The position numbers and the translations under genes were made by a program. Of a stretch of 64,000 bases of DNA, positions 39,453-51,363 are shown piece by piece; the stretch's first letter is position 1; each line of letters begins with the position of its first letter. The stretch lies in the NCBI GenBank assembly GCA_022768375.1, contig JALEMG010000009.1, forward strand, positions 1-64,000, given 5' to 3'. This DNA comes from Lentisphaeria bacterium. GTDB lineage: Bacteria; Verrucomicrobiota; Lentisphaeria; Victivallales; Victivallaceae. The notes beneath the pieces are model-generated. The model was not told where the DNA came from, did no database searches, and saw only the letters and a program-made list of their open reading frames with translations.

Positions 39453-39481
39453 AATATAGACGGACATTGCCGGTAAATCAA
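39453..39481 (-). promoter_or_regulatory. Promoter of nif3-rnhC
   Basis: Minus strand TTGATT (39476-39481), 17 bp, TATATT (39453-39458). Confidence 0.75.
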
Positions 39482-44970: not shown

Positions 44971-45714
44971 ATGAGGAGTACAGAGGAGAATGATCGTCGC
45001 AATCTCGAAGCGGAGACGCTGATCCATGAAAATCTGCGGCTGGTCCTGAAGATCGCCAACGATTTTCTCGGACGCGGTCTGCCGTGGGATGATCTGGTCT
45101 CGGAAGGCAACCGGGGACTGGTCATCGCCGCCCACCGGTTCAATCCGGACGTCGGGGCGAAATTCAGCACCTACAGCGCGTGGTGGATCAAACAGGCGAT
45201 CCGGCAGGCGCTGGCGGAGCAGACCTCCACCATCCGGGTGCCGGTCGGAACCCAGTTGAATTCCCGCCGGATCAAGCGTTCGGTGCGGAAACTCGCGCTG
45301 GAACTGGACCGGGACCCCTCGGACGAGGAAGTGGCGCGGGACGCGAATCTGCCGCTGGCCACGGTGGAGCGGCTGCGCAACGTCCGGCAGGTGGACATGC
45401 AGTCGCTCAACGAAATAATCGGCGCGGATGACGCCGACGGCGTGGAACTGCAGGATTTTTTCGCCGACGAACGGACGGTCGCGCCGGACAGAAAGTTGAT
45501 CCAACTGGAGGACATCGACCAGTTGCTGTCCCTGCTGGACACCCTGCCGCCGAAGGAGAAGCAGGTACTGCGGCTCCGTTTCGGGCTGGACGGGGCCGCC
45601 GTCATGACGCTGGAAAGCGTGGGCACAATGCTCAACTGCACCAGCGAACGGGTCCGTCAGATTCAGAATCAGGCGCTCAAGCGGCTGCAGCGGCGGATGG
45701 AGGAAAACGCCTGA
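44971..45714 (+). CDS. Sigma-70 family RNA polymerase sigma factor (regions 2-4)
   Basis: The 247-aa protein has regions 2 (HENLRLVLKIANDFLGRGLPWDDLVSEGNRGLVIAAHRFN, FSTYSAWWIKQAIRQAL), 3 (RVPVGTQLNSRRIKRSVRKLALEL) and 4 (LDTLPPKEKQVLRLRFGLDG...TSERVRQIQNQALKRL), and lacks region 1.1 and the non-conserved region. So it is a small group 2 or 3 factor closer to RpoD than to ECF types. TYSAWWIKQAI is the -10 recognition and melting helix. AAAGGAGAG precedes the ATG. Regulation may involve the structured leader. Confidence 0.88.
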   Translation: MRSTEENDRRNLEAETLIHENLRLVLKIANDFLGRGLPWDDLVSEGNRGLVIAAHRFNPDVGAKFSTYSAWWIKQAIRQALAEQTSTIRVPVGTQLNSRRIKRSVRKLALELDRDPSDEEVARDANLPLATVERLRNVRQVDMQSLNEIIGADDADGVELQDFFADERTVAPDRKLIQLEDIDQLLSLLDTLPPKEKQVLRLRFGLDGAAVMTLESVGTMLNCTSERVRQIQNQALKRLQRRMEENA

Positions 45715-45737
45715 TCCGTCTCACGGCACTGTGCTTG

Positions 45738-45768
45738 GGAGAGGGGGAAAATGTTTTTCCCTCTCCCG
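45738..45768 (+). terminator. Hairpin after the sigma factor gene
   Basis: GGGAGAGGG pairs with CCCTCTCCC (45738-45746 and 45760-45768) with inner GGAAAA/TTTTTCC pairing. There is no long T-run after it, so termination is only likely. Confidence 0.45.
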
Positions 45769-45796
45769 AACCACTTCCTTTTCAAGAAGATCAAGA

Positions 45797-45832
45797 CTTC
45801 CGCCCATTTGTTCTTTATGGGTATATTGTAAG
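45797..45832 (+). repeat. Degenerate CRISPR repeat at the left end of the array
   Basis: It keeps ATTTG, TTT-rich core, GG and TATATT of the repeat with indels, and lies exactly one 30-nt spacer (45833-45862) before the first intact repeat. Its -35 is lost, so the flanking spacer is probably silent. Confidence 0.65.
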
Positions 45833-45862
45833 AACAGCATCAGAGGCGGCAGATCCGCAAGA

Positions 45863-46819
45863 GTTTTGATTTGAGTGTTTTTTAGGTGTATATTAAGGCT
45901 CCGGCGGTCTGGCCTCCAGCACCGACGGGTTTTGATTTGAGTGTTTTTTAGGTGTATATTAAGGAAAGATGATTTGCGGAAGCGCAAATTTGTTGTTTTG
46001 ATTTGAGTGTTTTTTAGGTGTATATTAAGGCGACCTTTCGCATGACCGAAGCGGTGGAGAGTTTTGATTTGAGTGTTTTTTAGGTGTATATTAAGGCTGA
46101 AAAAAGAGACAGAGTTGAATTCTATGTTTTGATTTGAGTGTTTTTTAGGTGTATATTAAGGTCCGGAAGTCGCAGCGCGTCCGCGAATCCCGTTTTGATT
46201 TGAGTGTTTTTTAGGTGTATATTAAGGGCATATTAGGCAGAGTAGCCGCAGAACCTGGTTTTGATTTGAGTGTTTTTTAGGTGTATATTAAGGCGGAGCG
46301 CTTCTACGCCGTCAAGCAACTGCGTTTTGATTTGAGTGTTTTTTAGGTGTATATTAAGGATATGACTACCAATGCCGGGAATGCCATAAGTTTTGATTTG
46401 AGTGTTTTTTAGGTGTATATTAAGGATACCGGGCCGCCGGGACATAGTAATATACGTTTTGATTTGAGTGTTTTTTAGGTGTATATTAAGGTATGCAAAA
46501 AATTAAGGAGAAACGACAAGAGTTTTGATTTGAGTGTTTTTTAGGTGTATATTAAGGGCCTTCGGCCTGCGGATAATATCCGAAGCGGTTTTGATTTGAG
46601 TGTTTTTTAGGTGTATATTAAGGCGCCTTCGGTGTCAGTCGTGACAGTTCTATGTTTTGATTTGAGTGTTTTTTAGGTGTATATTAAGGTTGAACACAAC
46701 TGCATGATGGTGCGGACGGTTTTGATTTGAGTGTTTTTTAGGTGTATATTAAGGTCCACAACTGAGGCTGCTGATTGGTTCTTGTTTTGATTTGAGTGTT
46801 TTTTAGGTGTATATTAAGG
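45863..46819 (+). CRISPR. Type II-C CRISPR array: 15 identical 36-bp repeats, 14 spacers
   Basis: Repeats begin at 45863, 45929, 45995, 46061, 46126, 46192, 46258, 46324, 46390, 46456, 46522, 46588, 46654, 46719 and 46784. All read GTTTTGATTTGAGTG at the left and GTGTATATTAAGG at the right. Spacers are 29 or 30 nt. Within each repeat, TTGATT (positions 4-9) and TATATT (27-32) are 17 bp apart, matching the host promoter, so each crRNA should start about nt 3 of the next spacer and run into the next repeat. GTTTTGATTTGAGTGT pairs with the tracrRNA anti-repeat, fixing the direction as plus strand. cas2, cas1 and cas9 follow on the opposite strand. Confidence 0.98.
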
Positions 46820-46863
46820 AGTAAAACTGCAACAGACTGCCTGACAGATAGTTAAACGGTTTC

Positions 46864-46892
46864 TTGCAATTTCATTCCCGACATGCTATATT
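46864..46892 (+). promoter_or_regulatory. Promoter of the tracrRNA
   Basis: TTGCAA (46864-46869), 17 bp, TATATT (46887-46892). Aligned without gaps to the CRISPR repeat, TTG and the final ten bases TATATTAAGG coincide. Confidence 0.8.
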
Positions 46893-46897
46893 AAGGG

Positions 46898-46973
46898 ACA
46901 CTCAAATCTTAACTGACGAAGTCGGATATTCGGCACCGTGGCTTAACTGCCTCGCCCGCATATCCGATTTTGT
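46898..46973 (+). ncRNA. tracrRNA
   Basis: The anti-repeat ACACTCAAATCTTAAC (46898-46913) pairs with the first 16 nt of the repeat as 3 bp, a 2x2 U.U internal loop, then 11 bp. After it come a small GAC-GAA-GTC hairpin (46915-46923, nexus-like) and a long terminal stem CGGATAT/ATATCCG (46923-46929 and 46960-46966) enclosing GGCA/TGCC, then ATTTTG as terminator. Expected size is about 75 nt. It ends right at the cas2 stop codon on the other strand. Confidence 0.85.
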
Positions 46974-47297
46974 TTACCAGAATTCGAGTTGTTCCGGCAT
47001 CTGCGGCGACCGTACCTTACGCCGAGCGGAATAGTCGGGGCCGATTACCATAATCGCCTCCAGCCATTGCTTGTCGGTGATGAAAAACACCCGCACGTTG
47101 CCGCCTTCAGGGACCATTTCTCGGAGACGCTCCGCGTGCTTGCGCATTCGCTGCCAGTCGACACAGGGACGGGCATACACGGAAAAATTGACCATGGAAT
47201 AGCCGTCATCCAGCAGTTGTTTTCGGAATTTCGTCGCCGCCTTACGCTCATCCGCCGTCATCACCGGCAGATCGAACATCGTCATGATCCAACCCAT
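46974..47297 (-). CDS. cas2: CRISPR-associated endonuclease Cas2
   Basis: From the ATG at 47297 the product is 107 aa: MGWIMTMFDLPVMTADERKAATKFRKQLLDDGYSMVNFSVYARPC, the usual Cas2 ferredoxin-like start with the conserved Asp of FDLP, ending ...VRVFFITDKQWLEAIMVIG and a short tail. It forms the adaptation complex with Cas1. The start lies inside cas1 (50-nt overlap); a further 33 codons are open upstream but run antisense to sense with cas1 and are not Cas2-like. ATGs at 47285 and 47279 are alternatives. No strong ribosome binding site. Confidence 0.9.
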   Translation of the reverse strand: MGWIMTMFDLPVMTADERKAATKFRKQLLDDGYSMVNFSVYARPCVDWQRMRKHAERLREMVPEGGNVRVFFITDKQWLEAIMVIGPDYSARRKVRSPQMPEQLEFW

Positions 47298-48195
47298 TTT
47301 GAAAAGACTGTTCTTCAAGAATCGGACTCCAATATGTTCCTGCGGAATTTTTCTCAAGACATCCGGCAATCGTTTCCACATAAGCATCCACGGCATAGAG
47401 CAACTTCAAAACGCCCCGGGGAGTTGTCACCCGCACTTCCAATAATGCCCGGGCGATCGTCTTGCACCATGCGGAAAAATCCGGAAATCCATCGCTGCCT
47501 CTCACGAAATCAGCGAGAATGAAATCCACAAAAGGTCGAAATGGTTCCATCAAATCGTACACCAGCGGGAATCCCGCAAAACTGGGCAAATGATGAAACC
47601 CTATTTCCGGAAGCAAGCCGTGTCCCGCTATGGCACGGTGGACCAATGCCGTCAGCACCGCATATCCGTAGTTGAGCATATGATTGCCCGAAGTGTCGCC
47701 GTGCCGGTCTCTCCGCTCATCCGGACTGCCGATCGCGGCAAAATACCGCGGCCAGTAAAAACGGGCCGCCGCCGCCTCGTCCGGCGATCCGCCCCCGGCC
47801 CGTCGCGGAATCACCTCCGCAATATCAAGCAACCTCAACACCCGCGACTGATTGTCCACCTTGTCCGCCGATATTTTCTCCCACAGCCGATGGTGCAATG
47901 CCGAATCCAGAGCGCACTGCCGAACCAGCGCCGTCCCCCGAGTGGTATGCGCCAGCGGCGCGGTCACACCGCAAGGACAATATTTGTCGTCACAATGCAA
48001 AATCACCGTCCCGTTTCGGCAAAGCGCACTCAGGATGTCGCTGCTGAACGACACCCCCCGGGCGGCGATAATGACCGCCCGCAAGTCCTCCAGCGCACAA
48101 CGCTTCTCACCGCCGTCACCGCGCAACACCAGTTGTCCGCGCTCCCTGTGCAGGGAACAACCATGCGAGAGGATGTGCAGAACTTGAAAACTCAT
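47248..48195 (-). CDS. cas1: CRISPR-associated endonuclease Cas1
   Basis: The 315-aa protein is a type II Cas1: LEDLRAVIIAARGVSFSSDILSALCRNGTVILHCDD at the N-terminus, then the metal-site blocks DEAAAARFYW (Glu), NHMLNYGYAVLTALVHRAIAGHGLLPEIGFHH (His), and YDLMEPFRPFVD (Glu and Asp). It integrates new spacers with Cas2. It starts 3 bp after the cas9 stop and its own end overlaps cas2, so the three are one operon. No cas4 or csn2 is present, which makes the locus II-C. Confidence 0.95.
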   Translation of the reverse strand: MSFQVLHILSHGCSLHRERGQLVLRGDGGEKRCALEDLRAVIIAARGVSFSSDILSALCRNGTVILHCDDKYCPCGVTAPLAHTTRGTALVRQCALDSALHHRLWEKISADKVDNQSRVLRLLDIAEVIPRRAGGGSPDEAAAARFYWPRYFAAIGSPDERRDRHGDTSGNHMLNYGYAVLTALVHRAIAGHGLLPEIGFHHLPSFAGFPLVYDLMEPFRPFVDFILADFVRGSDGFPDFSAWCKTIARALLEVRVTTPRGVLKLLYAVDAYVETIAGCLEKNSAGTYWSPILEEQSFQNGLDHDDVRSAGDDGG

Positions 48196-48198
48196 CCG

Positions 48199-51100
48199 TT
48201 AACACCGCTTGAGGTTATTGATGATATCCGGGATGGCAGACAGGCTCAACTCAACATCTTCAGCATTGCGGAATAATACAATAACCCGATTACTTTTAAT
48301 CGTCTTTACCATGTATACGCCCGGCATCGCGTGGTTTCTGCCGCTGACGGCCTCTGCCCGCAACTCCACATTGCAACCACTCTGGAAAAACCCGACAATG
48401 GTGAAGCCCTGCGCGAGCAGGCGTTCGCGCTCCCGATAGACGGACGCATGCGCGTATACCGGCGCGACTCGGGGCTTTCCCTTGACATCCAGGTAAATGA
48501 ACTGCCCCTTGTGCTGAGCCCCGCGCCGATATTGGCCGCGGAAAGTATCACCGTCCTTGGAAAAGTTTTTGTACTCATCGGGATTCCACTGGAATATCCG
48601 CACTTTTCTGACCGGCATCCCGGTATCAGGGCTGACCATTCCGGCGCACCACACCTTCCAGCCGGCGGTGTCCCGAATATCGGCCTTATTGAAACTCTCC
48701 TGCAAAAATTCGCGCAATTTCCGATCGCCGACATTGGCAAATTTGGTCAACGCGGATTTTGGGTCAAATTTATTATTCCTAAGCCCCAGGGACTCCAGTG
48801 ATTCCCGTTTGGTCATCACCGCTTTGCCGTCAAGCACACGTTTGCCGTAAATCGTCTGCTCCATCTTCGATTTGGGAAGCATGAGGTAGTGCGGCACGAT
48901 CCGGTCAATGTACCGTCCGAAATAGTAACGGTCCACCTGATCCGGCAGGGCCAATTTGTCCCGCATCGCCGGGTCACGCATCCAGAATGTCGCAAAGGTC
49001 AACACCATGGCATCCAGCGCATGATGGCGTTTGTCTTTGCGGTTTTTCTCCTCAACGGATGCGGCGTCCCGGCATCCGGGCGCCAGCAGAGAATCAATCC
49101 GGTAGCGGCGGCGCAACGCAGCCGTCACCGCCCCGTTCACGACCAATACCCGCCGTTCCTCCCCGGCTGCGCCGTCGCGCCAACCGCACCGCAGCATGGC
49201 GATATCCCGAAATACCCGGGCGATCCACGCGGTGGAACAAAGGTCCGCATATTTCTGATCTAACGTTTCCGCATCCGGAGAGAGCAGCAGACGCTGTTTG
49301 CGCTTGGACAACTTCATCCCCATGACCCGGCGGGTATATGCCGTCCACTGACCGGAAGCACGCAGATACTCATACGGCGTCCGGGGGCCCTTCTCCTCAT
49401 TGGTCGACCTGAGCGTCACCACCTTGTTGGTAAAACTGTCGGAACCGTTTTTTCCGCCGTGACGGGGAACGATGTGGTCGATCTCCAAAACATCAAGATC
49501 GTGCGGGGAGAGCCCTACCCCGGTGTACGGACAGGTATTCCCCTGCTCTTTCAGCAGTTTCATTTTCAGCAGATCGGTGGCATTGAAGTACCCGAGCTCC
49601 TCCGCATCCTTGCGAATTTGTTCATTTTCCCTGCGCCGTTCCTTCATCTCCTTTTCGATCTTGGCTTTCTTCTCGGCGCCGACGAAATCCGTCCGCACCA
49701 ATTCGATGACAATGCGGTCCGGCCTGCCGATAGCCGGATTTTCCAGCATGCGTTTCAACTCCGTGTCAAAAAGTTTCAGCCGAAGCCGGATCAGCGGACT
49801 GCGCTGTTCCGCGATCAAAGTCCGCACCGCGGCATCCGGGTCCGCCATCCCCTGCTGGATTTTGGCCAGTCCCATGTCGGGAACGTAGATCGAATCCCAT
49901 GAATCCGGCATTGTCAGCAAAAATTTGAGATCATCGGCAAGATCGCCGCCGCCGAGATACGCCGGAGGAGATTTCAACAGTTTTTCATGCAGAGTGCGCG
50001 GAGACTCCCCGCTGAGAACAAGTTCCCGCATGATCTTCGCCCCCGGCCGGGAAAATCTTGACCGCCCGGATATCTTCGGCGCTTCCACCTCATCGTTTCC
50101 CGGTAAAACCTCCCAACCCAAAGTTCTGGCAAATTTCTTGAGATCGGTTTTAGTTATCCGGTAACAGGAGGCGATCTCTGATTTCATTTTATCCTTATGC
50201 CATTCTCCGGAGGCCTTAATTTGTGCTTTTTTCTCCCGGATCATTTCGCGTTTGGCATCGAGAATGCTTTTGATGGCATAAGCGGGAAGAACTCTTTCCT
50301 TTCCCTCCGGAGCGGTAAAACGCAACGACTTCAATTTGAGCAAAAACGTCGTCTCCATCACCGCCACGTCATCGGCCTGACAGACGTGCAGCCGCGGAAT
50401 CAGGGCGCAGTACCCGGGCTTGCGATTATCGAATTTGGGAATCTTTTGACCGAGCAGCGACTCCCAATCGGATGCTCCTCCTTCACGGAGGCCGAATTTC
50501 CTGCGCCGGTCAAGGTAATAGGAGGCGTACTGTTCCCGCCCGGGCCCGAAAAGAATCTCATCCGTCTTGCCGGAAAGTCCGGGAAAAAGCCGCGCCGCAT
50601 TTTCCAGCAACTTTCTCAACTCGGCGATGACAAGTTTACGGGGCGGAGTGAAGCCGCGCGCCCGCTGAGCGACATGTGCCGGACGCAAACGGATGGTGTC
50701 GGTGTCCGGCTCCCACAGCCCCATTCTGATGGCGTCAAAATAACACGGATAAAGATATTCCTCCCGGTCACCGACCCATTGCCGCAGAAGTTTTTCGTAC
50801 TCGGTAGCCCTCTTTTCGGTATCGGATTCGTCATCCACTTTCCCCGCGGAACGCCGATTTTTCCACGGGACGTCCGGGTCGAATCCACGACGCTGAAACG
50901 CCGAACGGACCGCTTTGAAAACCTGCCATCCCTCAAGTTTCTCCCCCCGCAGCAGTTTGATGCGCAACAGGCATGAGGTATATACCGTGTTATCCCCGGG
51001 AGTGGCAAATTCACGTTCCAGTCGCGGATCCCCGGAGGAGGGCGCGATACGCGATCCCGCATTCTCCGAGATTCTGGAATGCAAAACCTCGATCCCGGCC

Positions 51101-51309
51101 TCCATGCAGACCCGCACCCAATATGCTTCGCGGGCCGCATGCGCAATCCGGGTCCTGTACTGACGTCTTGCGTCCCGTACCTCTTCAAGACTTCCGGCCT
51201 CCGACGGCAGCAGCAGGGACTCCGCCTTCAAAATATCCAAATCCTTGCGGAAAGCAATTCCCAAAGACCCGGTTCCGACATCGAACGCGAAAACTTTTTC
51301 CGATTCCAT
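48199..51309 (-). CDS. cas9: Type II-C Cas9, compact (1036 aa)
   Basis: RNA-guided DNA endonuclease with all catalytic residues: RuvC-I FAFDVGTGSLG (Asp10), RuvC-II IVIELVRT (Glu536), HNH LEIDHIVPRHGGKNGSDSFTNKVV (His612), RuvC-III DKRHHALDAM (His763, Asp766). The bridge helix (RDARRQYRTRIAHAAREAYW, about 46-65) has fewer arginines than usual. Recognition lobe is short, about residues 70-500; the C-terminal PAM-interacting part spans about 830-1036 and looks unlike well-studied orthologues. ATG follows AAGGAG. I see no good host-type promoter upstream. The operon is less GC-rich than its neighbours, consistent with transfer. Confidence 0.97.
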   Translation of the reverse strand: MESEKVFAFDVGTGSLGIAFRKDLDILKAESLLLPSEAGSLEEVRDARRQYRTRIAHAAREAYWVRVCMEAGIEVLHSRISENAGSRIAPSSGDPRLEREFATPGDNTVYTSCLLRIKLLRGEKLEGWQVFKAVRSAFQRRGFDPDVPWKNRRSAGKVDDESDTEKRATEYEKLLRQWVGDREEYLYPCYFDAIRMGLWEPDTDTIRLRPAHVAQRARGFTPPRKLVIAELRKLLENAARLFPGLSGKTDEILFGPGREQYASYYLDRRRKFGLREGGASDWESLLGQKIPKFDNRKPGYCALIPRLHVCQADDVAVMETTFLLKLKSLRFTAPEGKERVLPAYAIKSILDAKREMIREKKAQIKASGEWHKDKMKSEIASCYRITKTDLKKFARTLGWEVLPGNDEVEAPKISGRSRFSRPGAKIMRELVLSGESPRTLHEKLLKSPPAYLGGGDLADDLKFLLTMPDSWDSIYVPDMGLAKIQQGMADPDAAVRTLIAEQRSPLIRLRLKLFDTELKRMLENPAIGRPDRIVIELVRTDFVGAEKKAKIEKEMKERRRENEQIRKDAEELGYFNATDLLKMKLLKEQGNTCPYTGVGLSPHDLDVLEIDHIVPRHGGKNGSDSFTNKVVTLRSTNEEKGPRTPYEYLRASGQWTAYTRRVMGMKLSKRKQRLLLSPDAETLDQKYADLCSTAWIARVFRDIAMLRCGWRDGAAGEERRVLVVNGAVTAALRRRYRIDSLLAPGCRDAASVEEKNRKDKRHHALDAMVLTFATFWMRDPAMRDKLALPDQVDRYYFGRYIDRIVPHYLMLPKSKMEQTIYGKRVLDGKAVMTKRESLESLGLRNNKFDPKSALTKFANVGDRKLREFLQESFNKADIRDTAGWKVWCAGMVSPDTGMPVRKVRIFQWNPDEYKNFSKDGDTFRGQYRRGAQHKGQFIYLDVKGKPRVAPVYAHASVYRERERLLAQGFTIVGFFQSGCNVELRAEAVSGRNHAMPGVYMVKTIKSNRVIVLFRNAEDVELSLSAIPDIINNLKRC

Positions 51310-51363
51310 GGCGCCCCCTTCTCCTTAATTTTCAAACAAAAAACTTGATGTCGCGCAATACAT

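Follow-up and report, generated by a model that had tools for sequence, protein, structure and literature searches.

Promoters embedded in CRISPR repeats are an established feature of type II-C systems, as the sequence-only reading of the locus described here had noted for Neisseria and Campylobacter (PMC3656092, PMC7038990). In Campylobacter jejuni, each spacer is served by a promoter in the repeat upstream of it, consisting of an extended -10 element (GGTAAAAT) placed at its extreme 3′ end, without a -35 element; dRNA-seq located primary crRNA 5′ ends inside the spacers, with the start at spacer nt 5, and the promoters of the host genes likewise have an extended -10 and lack a clear -35 (PMC3656092). 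In Neisseria meningitidis and Clostridium cellulolyticum, every repeat closes with an extended -10 of nine nt, and initiation within each repeat has been shown experimentally in Neisseria (PMC7038990). For the II-C systems of Flavobacterium columnare and F. psychrophilum, a host-type repeat promoter has been proposed from a TTG -33 element, 33–35 bp before each spacer; the promoter is of the Bacteroidota type, the supporting reads are few, and the accessible parts of the two reports describe no matching -10 (PMC8092290, PMC10309648). As far as the available text of the sources goes, the Cas9s of type II-D (Cas9d) systems are approximately 600–970 aa long, the tracrRNA lies beside the array, cas4 is common to loci of the subtype, and no repeat promoters are described (PMC9755519, PMC11706934, PMC12669027).

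The locus analysed here lies in a 64,000 nt window of the genome of a Lentisphaeria bacterium from the gut, and its CRISPR repeats match the host promoter consensus. All 15 repeats share one sequence, GTTTTGATTTGAGTGTTTTTTAGGTGTATATTAAGG, with an array period of 65–66 (Table 1). Since the anti-repeat of the tracrRNA fixes polarity, the crRNA strand is the plus strand; by this polarity and the gene order, the array faces the minus-strand cas genes and would be transcribed toward and opposite them, with the tracrRNA on the array strand. The assignment of polarity rests on the anti-repeat because the spacers gave no protospacer matches: none of the 14 had a protospacer in phage records, and three spacers and the repeat were without a match in IMG/VR. 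The cas2 reading frame overlaps cas1, and the true start of cas2 is probably nearer 47285. Directly 5′ of the array, and co-directional with it, is a gene for an RpoD-like sigma factor (regions 2, 3 and 4; 44971–45714). The product of the gene 5′ of cas9 joins an MlaA domain to one that resembles alpha/beta hydrolases. The short gap before cas9 (51310–51363) holds no host-type promoter (-2.5 bits), and cas9 expression may depend on the upstream mlaA-like gene.

Table 1. Coordinates of the features of the locus, numbered from the first letter of the window
Feature	Position	Strand	Details
Strong hairpin between the sigma-factor gene and the array	45735..45769	+	fold z -3.1
CRISPR array	45863..46819	+	15 identical 36-bp repeats, 14 spacers of 29-30 nt
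Repeat starts 1-8	45863, 45929, 45995, 46061, 46126, 46192, 46258, 46324		
Repeat starts 9-15	46390, 46456, 46522, 46588, 46654, 46719, 46784		
First-repeat promoter (match)	45866..45894	+	-35 TTGATT 45866-45871, 17 bp, -10 TATATT 45889-45894
Last-repeat promoter (match)	46787..46815	+	host model, generic scan
tracrRNA promoter (predicted)	46864..46892	+	TTGCAA-17-TATATT, TGn before -10, 27.3 bits
Predicted tracrRNA, about 78 nt	46898..46975	+	anti-repeat then strong 3′ hairpin, fold z -7.0
cas2	46974..47396	-	PF09827, TIGR01573
cas1, type II	47248..48195	-	PF01867, TIGR03639
cas9, Cas9d-type by NCBIfam	48199..51309	-	1036 aa; NF049971 850.8 bits (cut-off 375)

The sequence-only reading had pointed out TTGATT, 17 bp and TATATT in every repeat, and both the sequence and a generic sigma-70 scan agree with it in 15 of 15. 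On the crRNA strand, the two hexamers occupy repeat nt 4–9 and nt 27–32. The generic scan of 45600–47100 returned 16 sites, one in each of the 15 repeats and one at the tracrRNA promoter, where shuffled sequence gave 3.0 ± 1.5. A host promoter model was built from the same genome with the window excluded: genes called on other contigs, 949 kb in total, yielded 313 upstream regions. The model is limited by the draft state of the genome and the simplicity of the gene caller. The consensus found de novo was TTGAAA-N17-TATATTAT, and the iterated model was TTGAAAA(t), 17 bp, GtGnTATATTAT. TATATT was the top over-represented hexamer of these regions (114 occurrences vs 6.6 expected), with TATAAT at 24 vs 6.6, and TTG lay 17 bp from TATATT 61 times, 16 bp away 20 times and at no other distance more than five times. 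The housekeeping -10 of this host (G000, contigs L040–L059 and L072–L111, and also L152–L171) is TATATT(A), not TATAAT, with TTG at 17 bp.

On the host model, the repeat scores 22.3 bits, a value equalled or exceeded in 64 of the 313 host upstream regions; the repeat is thus on a par with the best site of the top 20%. Shuffled upstream regions reached 14.3 bits in 1% of cases and 20.9 bits in 0.1%. At least 14.3 bits was found in 159/313 host regions, which approximately bears out the earlier statement that most genes are preceded by this spacing. Two genes singled out at that stage do carry the hexamers and spacing of the repeat on the minus strand: nif3 is preceded by TTGATT-17-TATATTA (-10 at 39458), and the flavodoxin-like gene, a PF03358 FMN reductase, by TTGATT-17-TATATTG (23271). 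Across the window, 40 sites score at least 14.3 bits, comprising the 15 repeats, the tracrRNA promoter and 24 others, many of them just 5′ of genes. The opposite strand of the repeat scores -3.0 bits; as negative controls, none of five type I-C repeats from the same family exceeded -3.4 bits on either strand, and a repeat of a different type from the same genus scored -5.6 bits. The match of the repeat to the host consensus in -35, -10 and spacing is confirmed by these data. The repeat differs from the best host -35 (TTGAAA) in its TTGATT, and has no TGn before its -10.

Such a match might be a by-product of AT-rich repeats, if the array were transcribed from upstream as one long pre-crRNA and processed by RNase III. 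Read-through from the co-directional sigma-factor gene is possible, but the strong hairpin intervenes between that gene and the array, and the approximately 150 nt before the array lack a host-type promoter (best site 1.4 bits on the host model). AT-rich shuffles also seldom attain the score of the repeat: with nt 1–16 fixed and the rest shuffled, 0.035% did so. We consider a long pre-crRNA very improbable as the source of the crRNAs. The hairpin is a possible insulator or terminator and is not followed by a U-tract; together, the hairpin and the lack of a promoter before the array fit a report that II-C arrays are insulated on their upstream side (PMC12080349).

The tracrRNA is encoded just behind the array. 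Its anti-repeat, ACACTCAAATCTTAAC (46898–46913), pairs with repeat nt 1–16 except nt 4–5, and its 3′ hairpin is followed by UUUUGUUU. The promoter in front of it is of the same kind as that in the repeat, and would place the start at the anti-repeat (46898). A start at the first anti-repeat bases would leave the tracrRNA without a 5′ tail, and repeat nt 17–36 free of tracrRNA pairing. The nearest relative of the locus, in the Lentisphaeria bacterium UBA1791 genome (G026, probably record DCFZ01000055), belongs to the same genus as the host and has a Cas9 that is 64% identical; its tracrRNA promoter, TTGCAA-17-TATATTAAG, scores 28.2 bits and is kept, and the DNA between the hexamers has diverged. 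The sequence TATATTAAGG (46887–46896) at the tracrRNA promoter also occurs where the repeat ends on its 3′ side, with a shorter match in G026. The tracrRNA gene may have grown out of a repeat.

We think it likely that each repeat is both a complete host-type promoter and the start signal for the crRNA of the next spacer. In the proposed mechanism, the TTGATT -35 and the TATATT -10 would form a complete housekeeping-type promoter; because only nt 1–16 pair with the anti-repeat, the repeat would be split into a pairing half, which holds the -35, and a promoter half, which holds the -10. RNA polymerase would start at about nt 1–4 of the following spacer. The earlier placement of the start near nt 3 is somewhat too exact; at that position the 14 spacers have A5 G3 C5 T1, a purine preference too weak to count. 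The 5′ end of the crRNA would then be set by initiation and its 3′ end at the tracrRNA:repeat duplex, resulting in a short crRNA made up of a guide of approximately 27–30 nt and the 5′ half of the next repeat. The transcript of the last repeat meets no further repeat and would run toward the tracrRNA, which would be made from an equivalent promoter with its start coinciding with the anti-repeat. A T6 run follows the pairing half at nt 16–21 of every repeat (e.g. 46010–46015) and is present in G026 too; were the tracrRNA to pair in trans, the run would look like part of a terminator. The further suggestion that new spacers need no leader can hold for expression only, as new spacers enter II-C arrays at the last repeat, beside a leader (PMC12080349, PMC8092290).

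Comparison with related repeats bears on how much of this promoter is functional. In G026 the repeat, GTTTTGATTTGAGTGTTTTTTGATGGTATATTAGAG, keeps both hexamers and the 17 bp, and the bases before the -10 have changed. The sequence-only reading had looked to relatives for conservation of the two hexamers together, and had taken repeats without the 17-bp spacing as evidence against a promoter; the nearest relative bears out the conservation, but more distant Cas9d repeats fall outside the 17-bp register, with the -10 at nt 31–36, and the II-C repeats of the same order have 16 bp; the repeat–promoter match is specific to the host rather than general to the Cas9 family. The II-C-like repeats form two further classes in the host’s order, GYTGGRGCTTGTAGAG... 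and GTTGTGATTTGAYG..., both with TTG at nt 9–11 and the -10 at nt 31–36. In the type II repeats of this order, a TTG lies 16–17 bp before the -10 slot in 20 of 20 genomes, and the slot contains TATATT in 17 of the 20 (the exceptions being TACATT, TATAGT and TTGATT), a count that is not of independent cases, as related repeats share ancestry. None of eight repeats from other orders has TATATT (TACAAT twice, CATAAT, CAGAAT, TAAATT, TAGGTT and TATAAT twice).

TATATT is also enriched 5′ of genes in two other genera of the host’s order (G092 and G051). The Cas9d repeats of IMCC26134 (G235) and G186 terminate in CATAAT and CAGAAT; 5′ of genes in these two genomes, neither such an enrichment nor a host -10 was found. 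In the Cas9d-type array of IMCC26134 (Verrucomicrobia; L063:11618–13558), an internal C run varies from 7 to 10 between repeats, so that the distance from the 5′ part to the 3′ end differs among them.

The -35 of the repeat lies in the tracrRNA-pairing half, and its sequence may be kept for pairing instead. It is conceivable that only the -10 works, extended or bare as in Campylobacter and Neisseria, with TTGATT present for pairing and incidental to transcription: Cas9d repeats in which a -10-like hexamer lies 21 bp away likewise have TTGA at nt 4, and II-C repeats from other orders (G421 and G289) share the 5′ half, with TTGATG, and differ in the 3′ half. However, a -10-only promoter would be weak here because the repeat has no TGn, the host promoters have a strong TTG at 16–17 bp, and removal of the TTG in silico lowers the score of the repeat from 22.3 to 10.8 bits. 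Furthermore, in the three repeat classes of these hosts TTG is found 16–17 bp from TATATT at differing coordinates. We therefore regard a role for the -10 alone as unlikely, and favour the bipartite promoter. The promoters could also be intact and largely silent, with the array occluded, regulated or unexpressed in this host, a view with which the missing host-type promoter just upstream of cas9 would agree. The identical repeats and the tracrRNA promoter kept in G026 suggest instead a maintained system, and make a silent array, to our minds, quite unlikely.

The earlier label of II-C is not supported as stated. The locus does have cas9, cas1 and cas2 with no fourth gene, which is the gene set of subtype II-C. 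However, the Cas9 scores 850.8 bits with the NCBIfam Cas9d model (NF049971) and 205 bits with the general Cas9 model (TIGR01865), whereas the values for four II-C-like Cas9s from the host’s order are 144–180 bits and 619–659 bits, respectively; these scores do not support a grouping with the II-C Cas9s of related hosts. By profile score the protein is Cas9d-type. We leave subtype II-D unassigned because cas4 is absent and the structures matched best are those of ordinary Cas9s: no Cas4 (PF01930) was found in the genome, which is 94.75% complete, and a profile of six sister Cas9s matched other Cas9s best among solved structures, led by 6jdq, over the HNH and neighbouring parts only, with no chain named Cas9d among the 60 matches listed. 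The 2025 classification, in its available part, gives II-D with cas1, cas2 and cas4 (PMC12669027). In length, the protein and its sister loci (1057–1181 aa) exceed the described II-D Cas9s. By the order of their ORFs, the sister Cas9d-type loci read cas9-cas1-cas2-array. A Cas9 profile search of genome contigs returned four loci with a two-member alignment and none with a one-sequence query; searches of viral contigs gave no match, and those of plasmids distant Cas9s only.

Overall, the sequence-only interpretation is partly supported, and the system resembles each of the described ones in part. As in Campylobacter jejuni, each upstream repeat has a (here predicted) promoter that matches the host sigma-70 consensus and places the crRNA start inside the spacer, and cas9, cas1 and cas2 are the only cas genes; the extended -10 at the repeat end, the missing -35 and the II-C Cas9 of that species set it apart (PMC3656092). 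The repeat had been called a more complete form of such promoters. It does have a full -35/-10 pair, but this largely reflects the promoter type of the host: in C. jejuni the repeat carries an extended -10 since the host’s own promoters are of this type, and the repeat mirrors the host in both cases (PMC3656092). In Neisseria and C. cellulolyticum, no bipartite promoter is described, and the -10 runs to the end of the repeat (PMC7038990), whereas here it stops 4 nt short. As the -10 ends at nt 32, compared with flush in Campylobacter, the start would fall approximately 4 nt earlier relative to the spacer. With Flavobacterium there is a common TTG element of a proposed host-type repeat promoter (PMC8092290, PMC10309648), and with type II-D a Cas9 that passes the Cas9d model and a tracrRNA beside the array (PMC9755519, PMC11706934, PMC12669027), in both cases from the available parts of the reports.

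These differences might, tentatively, reflect tuning of the repeat to the host RNA polymerase in this Cas9d clade, with the -35 recruited from the 5′ pairing half and the -10 shifted inward by 4 nt to meet the host’s 17-bp optimum. If so, CRISPR repeats would be under joint selection for tracrRNA pairing and for the host polymerase; the tuning would set the native guide at 27–30 nt instead of approximately 24–26 nt, and an array moved to another host would depend on re-tuning of its repeat. Joint selection of this kind would predict native guide lengths and may limit the hosts able to use a transferred array.

The accessible literature contained neither a repeat promoter in a Cas9d-type system nor a full -35/-10 pair matched to the measured consensus of a host. 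New here are the Cas9d-like setting, a promoter that has both elements and is matched to the host, and the -10 shifted 4 nt inward, which predicts longer crRNA guides. Our analysis adds a Cas9d-type system, and the Lentisphaeria, to the settings in which repeats probably carry promoters, and indicates that, across the repeat classes of one host order, the -10 of the repeat follows the unusual TATATT consensus of the host.
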